From assembly GCA_001592805.2 (NCBI GenBank), contig CP051143.1, positions 1,240,001-1,304,000 on the forward strand: a stretch of DNA of 64,000 bases, given 5' to 3'. Under the pieces are notes generated by a model, which was not told where the DNA came from, did no database searches, and was given only the letters and a program-made list of their open reading frames with translations. The DNA is from Peltaster fructicola. Taxonomy: Eukaryota > Ascomycota > Dothideomycetes. This document shows, one piece after another, positions 62,388-63,276 of this stretch; position 1 is the stretch's first letter, and each line of letters opens with the position of its first letter. The position numbers were made by a program, and so were the translations under genes.

Positions 62388-63276
62388 ATGTCGAGTCCTA
62401 AGCGTAGGATCGAGACAGATGTATGTGAACTGGCTGGCTAGATTGGAGCGAGACTGACAAGAGCTATAGGTCATGAAGATGTTGGTTCGTTGGCATAGCT
62501 TAAGGAACAGCCCACTGACTCTACTAGGCTCATGAGTGACTATGAGGTCACGTTGGTCAATGACAACAGTGAGTCCCGAGAACATACGCTGAGGCCATAT
62601 TTGCTGACCTGTAACAGTGTTCGTTCACGGAGGAAGGCAGCGTTGCCGCTTGAGCTGACATTATTCAGGCAAGAGTTCTACGTGCGATTCAAGGGCCCGG
62701 AAGAGAGTATGTTCGCCAGGCGAGGATTGTGCAAACCTGACATGCTACAGCACCTTTTGTGGGCGGCATATGGAAGATCCATGTCGAACTACCAGACCAA
62801 TATCCTTACAAAAGCCCAAGTATCGGCTTTGTGAATCGCATCTTCCACCCCAACATCGACGAACTGTATGTCGTTGCATCGCAGACGACGTTTCCAGCTA
62901 ATCACCGTTCAGGTCCGGCAGTGTGTGTCTTGACGTGATCAACCAGACCTGGTCACCAATGTACGACATGATCAACATCTTTGAGACATTCCTACCACAG
63001 CTTTTGCGATATCCAAACCCAACAGATCCACTGAACGGCGAAGCAGCCGCGCTCATCATGCGCGAGCCCAAAGCATACGACGCCAAAGTGAAGGGTATGT
63101 ACTGTGCTTACCACATGGTGCTGAGCACTGACATTGATCAAGAATACGTCACTAAGTACGCCTCTGCCACCGCTGCCGATGAGGCTGGCGAAGCGTCCGA
63201 TGAGAGCGACGAGATGAGCAGCGTCGGCAGTTTCGACGAGGAAGACGAAGAGCCTGCCGGCACGATGGAGGTATGA
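62388..63276 (+). CDS. UBC8: Ubiquitin-conjugating enzyme E2 Ubc8 (UBE2H type), with a one-nucleotide exon
   Basis: Exons: 62388-62420, 62470-62480 (11 nt), 62528-62568, 62618 (1 nt), 62669-62706, 62751-62865, 62913-63276. They sum to 603 nt, giving 200 residues. Introns are 49, 47, 49, 50, 44 and 47 nt. In yeast Ubc8 acts with the GID/CTLH ligase to degrade gluconeogenic enzymes. The spliced protein starts [19 protein letters not shown], then [17 protein letters not shown], where the Met codon is built from three exons (A, T, G). [20 protein letters not shown] and [12 protein letters not shown] (HPN motif) follow. The active-site Cys is in [18 protein letters not shown]. The acidic C-terminal tail ([18 protein letters not shown]) is typical of the family. 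The presence of AcuK, a gluconeogenesis activator, in the same window is probably coincidental. Confidence 0.92.
62618..62618 (+). other. UBC8: Predicted one-nucleotide exon (T) of UBC8
   Basis: The base is flanked by AACAG upstream and GTTCGT downstream. Intron a (62569-62617, 49 nt) has donor GTGAGT and branch CTGAC at 62604-62608; intron b (62619-62668, 50 nt) has donor GTTCGT and branch CTGAC at 62655-62659. In both, the branch A lies 10 nt before the last intron base. The 100-nt block taken as one intron would shift the frame; keeping this T restores it and gives the Met of the conserved NDxMQEF segment. Confidence 0.75.

Follow-up and report, generated by a model that had tools for sequence, protein, structure and literature searches.

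The UBC8 gene, encoding an E2 enzyme, occupies positions 62388–63276 of the plus strand and is the last plus-strand gene found in the window, the 64,000-nucleotide stretch of Peltaster fructicola DNA analyzed here. The gene was modeled with eight exons and seven short introns (49, 47, 49, 50, 44, 47 and 48 nt), the fourth exon being a single nucleotide:

62388–62420, plus strand: exon 1, aligned to 8pmq_E
62421–62469, plus strand: intron 1, 49 nt, GTATGT..TAG
62470–62480, plus strand: exon 2, an 11-nt microexon coding for VMK and the first two bases of Met15
62481–62527, plus strand: intron 2, 47 nt, GTTGGT..TAG
62528–62568, plus strand: exon 3, its 3′ end in phase 1 with a final A
62569–62617, plus strand: intron A, 49 nt, GTGAGT..CTGAC..CAG, branch A 10 nt before the end
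62618–62618, plus strand: candidate one-nucleotide exon T, middle base of the Met29 codon ATG (assessed by the letters, parse scores, shuffles and relatives)
62619–62668, plus strand: intron B, 50 nt, GTTCGT..CTGAC..CAG, branch A 10 nt before the end
62669–62706, plus strand: exon 5, first base G, starting in phase 2
62707–62750, plus strand: intron, 44 nt, GTATGT..CAG
62751–62865, plus strand: exon 6, with a PF00179 match
62866–62912, plus strand: intron, 47 nt, GTATGT..CAG
62913–63094, plus strand: exon 7, carrying Cys85, which is invariant in the alignment; PF00179 match
63095–63142, plus strand: intron, 48 nt, GTATGT..AAG
63143–63276, plus strand: exon 8, acidic C-terminal tail and stop

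With the T exon included the model translates to 184 amino acids free of internal stops, and the product matched Pfam UQ_con (PF00179) across the UBC core (residues 12–142, 133.8 bits). A search of solved structures placed the E2-24 kDa chain 8pmq_E, which we take to be yeast Ubc8, at the top (1.5e-71), followed by 8pjn_2 and 2z5d_A (E2 H) and then by 2onu_A and 1yf9_A. The first E2 of a different type, 1jbb_A (3.6e-26), ranked far behind the Ubc8/UBE2H chains, and by this ranking the protein is closest to Ubc8/UBE2H rather than to other E2s. The yeast UBC8 E2 enzyme serves the GID ligase. An NCBIfam search with the protein assigned no family. Cys85, presumably the catalytic cysteine, is invariant in the alignment. 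The AAG acceptor of the last intron (63140–63142) is of a type present in 2 of 24 sampled introns, and T occupies donor position +3 in two of the seven UBC8 introns (62481–62486, GTTGGT; 62619–62624, GTTCGT) and in 3 of 28 unfiltered introns sampled from the genome.

The codons for VNDN and QEF are separated by 100 nt, a block that the first-pass annotation had reported with the right letters and coordinates and that is present as a single copy in the genome. Exon sequence ending ...GACAACA is followed by GTGAGT...CTGACCTGTAACAG, a single T, GTTCGT...CTGACATTATTCAG and then GCAAGAGT...; positions 62616–62620 read AG-T-GT, leaving exactly one base between acceptor and donor. Both introns flanking the T are complete, as had been claimed, each with a GT donor (weak in intron B), a CTGAC motif with its A at −10 and a CAG acceptor. 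The upstream exon ends GAC AAC A and the downstream exon starts G CAA GAG TTC, and the T, which is required for the reading frame, restores A-T-G and with it the Met typical of the family at this position. Excision of all 100 nt was correctly predicted to break the frame and gives a 68-codon product that terminates before Cys85; the frameshift stems from the phases of the flanking exons (1 at the end of the upstream exon, 2 at the start of the downstream one) and not, as had been argued, from 100 failing to be a multiple of 3. Retention of the whole block is in frame and adds 34 residues, matching the roughly 34 foreign residues anticipated, while retention of intron A alone or of intron B alone leads to stops. 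The whole-block intron, full retention and A-only or B-only retention were rejected on these grounds.

A resemblance to stwintrons had also been proposed for this block. In such a nested arrangement one intron would interrupt a splice element of the other, with removal of the block in its entirety, and the two adjacent introns of about 100 nt in total recall the stwintrons documented from the same fungal group (PMC5639578, PMC12403724). However, both introns here are whole, with no donor, branch or acceptor split by the other intron, the block is without the GG 5′ end of a [D1,2] stwintron, and its removal as one complex intron shifts the frame. A stwintron at this site is vanishingly improbable.

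Alternative splicing patterns were enumerated over 62528–62706 as single and double introns of 40–160 nt with GT-AG boundaries (GC-AG for single introns only), and those in frame and stop-free were kept, giving 79 patterns counting full retention. These were scored against a family profile built solely from 45 proteins outside Pezizomycotina. The one-base exon ranked first at 361.5 bits, about 9 bits above the runner-up (352.3 bits), in line with the earlier suggestion that introns of 49 and 50 nt surround T 62618 and yield Met. Patterns with GC donors and other two-intron patterns within the same 40–160 nt range scored below the T exon and were rejected. Among the alternatives the first-pass annotation had judged correctly that whole excision and full retention fail, but it had missed two in-frame single introns, 62573–62668 and 62569–62673. 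The first, which is the runner-up, is a 96-nt intron that uses a GT four bases downstream of the intron A donor and yields VNDN-SE-QEF with one extra residue; it is stop-free, but its donor GTCCCG scores −8.4 to −8.6 bits (−8.4 in the ranked pattern) and overlaps GTGAGT (7.1 to 7.2 bits). The second is a 105-nt intron with an AAG acceptor that yields VNDN-K-FYV with two residues missing. Its donor is strong and the last UBC8 intron offers a precedent for AAG, but it skips a nearer CAG and scores 346.4 bits on the family profile, 15 bits worse than the T exon and below the 96-nt pattern. On Pfam UQ_con the order was unchanged with smaller gaps (T exon 133.8, +4 donor 130.6, AAG acceptor 126.5 bits), the AAG form being 7 bits worse than the T exon.

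Both single introns are about double the usual length. A strict codon-usage survey of 264 kb, confined to introns of 40–70 nt, kept 24 introns from 37 acceptors with a median of 47 nt, which the 49 and 50 nt of introns A and B fit, and their description as normal for this genome is upheld. When the survey was widened, 20 of 38 candidates were 40–59 nt long and the remaining 18 were spread over 60–160 nt, three of them at 100–109 nt. An intron of 96–105 nt would accordingly be unusual for the genome. An initial survey, in which donor matrices were refined iteratively, lost its signal to noise (123 candidates with a median of 60 nt and a weak consensus) and was discarded. On a donor matrix derived from the 24 introns, a small set filtered at 4 bits that excludes weak donors by construction, the intron A donor GTGAGT scored 7.1 to 7.2 bits and the intron B donor GTTCGT −1.2 bits, under all 24 introns of that filtered sample; the donor of UBC8 intron 2, GTTGGT, is weaker still at −3.5 bits. 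To gauge how often such signals arise by chance, the interior of the block was put through 20000 dinucleotide shuffles in which its outer donor hexamer and final 16 nt stayed fixed. In 3 of these a branch motif accompanied a T exon preceded by YAG and followed by GTNNGY, and 8 gave a fully signaled one-nucleotide exon of any base.

Relatives were collected by three protein searches, of which the best 120 of 5733, 6177 and 6033 matches were combined into 228 different proteins; these are the nearest relatives of the three queries, a sample narrower than the whole family. Of these, 126 were NCBI-named proteins of Pezizomycotina, 57 were environmental and 45 were others (non-Pezizomycotina fungi and three plant-labeled entries), grouped by hand from labels and names, environmental entries being those with jgi, lgn, ena or merc labels and no NCBI name. 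All were compared as proteins, genomic DNA at the site being read solely in P. fructicola. Length at the site was measured between VND[NS] and F[YF]V, and 17 proteins missed by the parser were classified by eye. Among the matches listed, this length was wrong in 102 of 126 Pezizomycotina proteins and in none of the 57 environmental or 45 other proteins (Fisher 2e-28 and 5e-24, respectively, values that ignore kinship and serve as a guide only). A further six of the 126 had the canonical length with Arg for Met (N-R), a form that could come from cDNA with an extra base forced onto a single intron, and the 18 listed Pezizomycotina proteins with canonical length and Met may have the T annotated or may have lost one intron.

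In a gap profile that left out P0001, P0034 and P0048, the Pezizomycotina proteins had 98 gaps at the T site and 74 around the 11-nt exon 2, against 3 at each of three other exon junctions and none in two exon interiors. The 56 environmental and 43 other proteins had no gap at the T site, and 4 and 2 gaps, respectively, elsewhere. Since gaps concentrate at the T site and are nearly absent from the environmental and other proteins, the wrong models are, to judge from these proteins, a local fault distinct from general model noise. This pattern also bears on the idea of a sequencing or assembly error, under which one ordinary intron would adjoin an exon short of one base. Loss of one base at an exon edge would indeed mimic the frame problem seen here, but the same codon is troubled in many other genera (the 102 of 126 among the matches listed), and the T is surrounded by a second acceptor, branch site and donor, a combination that shuffling produced 3 times in 20000; an error of this kind has almost no likelihood. 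The earlier view that a one-base change in the length of the block on resequencing would overturn the reading was too broad, as a change inside an intron is irrelevant and only the T and the exon edges count. Real biological indels at the site were rejected as well, the forms varying between near relatives and being absent from the 57 environmental proteins.

The forms taken by the wrong models were compared with the products expected if the T were overlooked. A one-residue insert, NSxQE, was written in 20 of the 126 Pezizomycotina proteins among the matches listed (x being K in nine, M in three, E in two, T in two and otherwise G, L, A or Q), including NSKQEF and NSEQEF. It is the product of joining a GT four bases into the intron A donor (A-GTNN-GT) to the outer acceptor, and every residue found at x possesses an NNG codon. 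This is the protein expected of the 96-nt intron, but none of the 57 environmental or 45 other proteins listed has the extra residue, and near relatives disagree as annotation artefacts would (Sodiomyces alcalophilus reads MQE and S. alkalinus SKQE). The 96-nt intron is exceedingly unlikely. NK-FYV, the form with the AAG acceptor, was written in 13 of the 126 listed, among them Penicillium chrysogenum P0041, but the otherwise identical environmental protein P0011 reads MQEF, and the 105-nt intron is very unlikely. NM followed by an insert occurred in ten models, eight of which go on as [Y/F/S]V, a dipeptide with a background of 3% (p 2e-8 on V alone); this fits A-T-G TNN GT, as expected if a GTNNGT donor were retained directly after the T exon, the Ser of two MSV inserts fitting a donor only if its codon is TCN. 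Of the remaining NM inserts, MYA fits GTAYGC and MHP fits no donor. Eleven read-through inserts, starting with S, ending in RQE and at least 20 residues long, were also tested. A T exon is possible in five (47+1+52 or 49+1+56 nt, branch motif present), a fit reached by 0 to 1.6% of shuffled inserts (500 each), and these five models stem from three Fusarium species only. Six inserts had no such exon: five are too short (20–27 codons) for two introns of at least 40 nt, and that of P0156 (30 codons) is long enough, yet does not fit. Many of the wrong models thus appear to be what a missing T would produce, and together with the ranking of the 79 patterns they support the one-nucleotide exon first proposed for this gene.

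All 57 environmental proteins listed have canonical spacing at the site, and for 52 of them the nearest neighbor within the set, with the region upstream and including the site excluded, is a Pezizomycotina protein. P0011 equals P. chrysogenum P0041 over its full length except at the site (MQE versus K), and P0018 equals Morchella P0218 over its full length except at the site, where P0218 has a 16-residue insert and LP in place of MQ. From LMSD on, P0158 equals Ilyonectria P0136 and P0160 equals Cytospora P0165, again except at the site. All four environmental proteins read MQEF where their named counterparts are broken. Because most environmental contigs are under 2 kb, these proteins probably represent assembled spliced transcripts. 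No DNA encoding relatives turned up when viral contigs were scanned.

The set contained further irregular entries. P0208, an entry filed under the plant Anthurium amnicola, matches Saitoella at 90% identity across 85% of the query and is probably fungal contamination of a plant transcriptome. The Quercus suber entry P0001 repeats most of the E2 core in a single 302-residue protein and is probably a fused model or a tandem copy. At exon 2 (62470–62480), 39 of the 126 Pezizomycotina proteins among the matches listed have a form one residue short, VM[KR]LMSD, which none of the 57 environmental or 45 other proteins listed shares; it could reflect a skipped 3-nt exon in those lineages.

Taken as a whole, these data make it very probable that position 62618 is a constitutive one-nucleotide exon of UBC8 lying between two complete U2-type introns that are removed stepwise, in an arrangement probably dating from the Pezizomycotina ancestor. 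Introns A and B would interrupt a single Met codon, A behind its first base and B behind its second, and each would be recognized across itself, by intron definition. In filamentous ascomycetes splice sites are paired across introns, according to two stwintron papers (PMC5639578, PMC12403724). Two splicing complexes can hardly occupy sites one base apart, and the introns would for this reason leave one after the other; the authors of the Arabidopsis APC11 study argue likewise for stepwise removal there (PMC4674806). Intron A would probably go first, as its stronger donor suggests, and either order of removal would produce the identical mRNA, ..AAC ATG CAA... Joining of the outer donor to the outer acceptor would lose the T and give the truncated 68-codon product ending before Cys85. 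Since a product lacking the T is out of frame, skipping is not expected to provide a useful isoform.

The UBC8 arrangement can be set beside several known systems. A recursive splicing site is a zero-length exon, its acceptor directly abutting a donor, and serves stepwise removal of very long introns; no base is left behind there, whereas one coding base would remain in UBC8, between introns of about 50 nt. The Pezizomycotina stwintrons, such as those of bioDA and lipS (PMC5639578, PMC12403724), resemble the UBC8 block in having adjoining short introns removed consecutively under intron definition and in being ancient and often missed by annotation, as the UBC8 block appears to be. They differ in that the internal intron breaks up a splice element of the external one and no base is retained, whereas in UBC8 the introns are whole and one base would be retained. 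In the mitochondrial rRNA gene of Ophiostoma, a one-nucleotide exon separates two group II introns at rnl-576/577 (PMC12308204), again fungal introns one base apart and taken there as two successive insertions; the UBC8 introns, unlike these, are spliceosomal and lie within a codon. A one-nucleotide exon is also reported for placozoan mitochondrial cox1 (PMC5436844).

One-nucleotide exons were initially called extremely rare with reference to a single plant gene, APC11; rare they are, but the precedents also include VPS55 and CYP621A. The APC11 single-nucleotide exon of Arabidopsis and other land plants (PMC4674806, PMC8831610) is like that of UBC8 in having one base between AG and GT, in being frame-essential and absent from reference annotations, and in belonging to a ubiquitin-pathway gene; it is conserved over a large clade, as the UBC8 exon appears to be. 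It differs in being a plant exon, in its base (A) and in lying within 422 nt once assigned as a single Arabidopsis intron, and it was demonstrated by cDNA and mutants, whereas the UBC8 exon is predicted here from sequence. The one-nucleotide microexon of VPS55 in land plants (PMC8831610) is conserved, as the UBC8 exon appears to be, and is unannotated in reference genomes; alternative inclusion and gene duplication are described for VPS55 in plants. A further precedent is the single-nucleotide exon of Fusarium CYP621A (PMC12940212), presented in its paper as the second case and the first from a fungus. It too is fungal and nuclear, supplies the second base of a codon belonging to a conserved motif and sets a phase-1 exon facing a phase-2 exon, with nearly all gene models wrong. 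The CYP621A exon belongs to one Fusarium P450 subfamily, has the base G (AG-G-GT) and is documented by RNA reads, whereas UBC8 is a core gene with the base T and a pattern, seen in proteins, that extends across Pezizomycotina. CYP621A was the only nuclear fungal one-nucleotide exon in the literature searched, and full-text searches on one-nucleotide exons and microexons and on UBC8 or E2 introns, mostly outside subscription papers, found no earlier report of the UBC8 exon. The UBC8 exon would therefore add to a very rare class, and what would be unusual is its age and reach, as judged from proteins; it is possibly the widest-spread one-nucleotide exon in fungi.

Broken UBC8 models include those of Pezizomycetes (Tuber indicum, Morchella) and Geoglossomycetes (Geoglossum), lineage having been looked up for Tuber and Geoglossum, and the others are assigned by name, on our assumption, to Dothideomycetes, Eurotiomycetes, Sordariomycetes, Leotiomycetes and Lecanoromycetes. 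Within the set the site is canonical in Saitoella, Taphrina, Pneumocystis, Lipomyces, two Basidiomycota and earlier-branching fungi, all of which we take to lie outside Pezizomycotina. The T exon looks old, shared and mostly overlooked, and the simplest reading would be a single origin before the Pezizomycotina radiation. It is likely that the exon arose once in the Pezizomycotina ancestor and was kept in Dothideo-, Eurotio-, Sordario-, Leotio-, Lecanoro-, Geoglosso- and Pezizomycetes. Retention of an ancestral T exon across these classes would mean that this codon is wrong in most of the subphylum's deposited UBC8 proteins, and two introns one base apart would be a persistent intermediate for intron sliding: were one of them lost, the other would be shifted by exactly one nucleotide.

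One-nucleotide exons mark the lower limit of splicing's capacity. A conserved one-base exon in a core gene, across a subphylum that includes the genetic models Aspergillus and Neurospora, would make the mechanism of exon definition and the order of intron removal directly testable in these fungi. A further implication is a systematic error in public protein databases, and a simple finder for more one-base exons suggests itself, namely codons at which many gene models of one clade break and the transcripts are intact.
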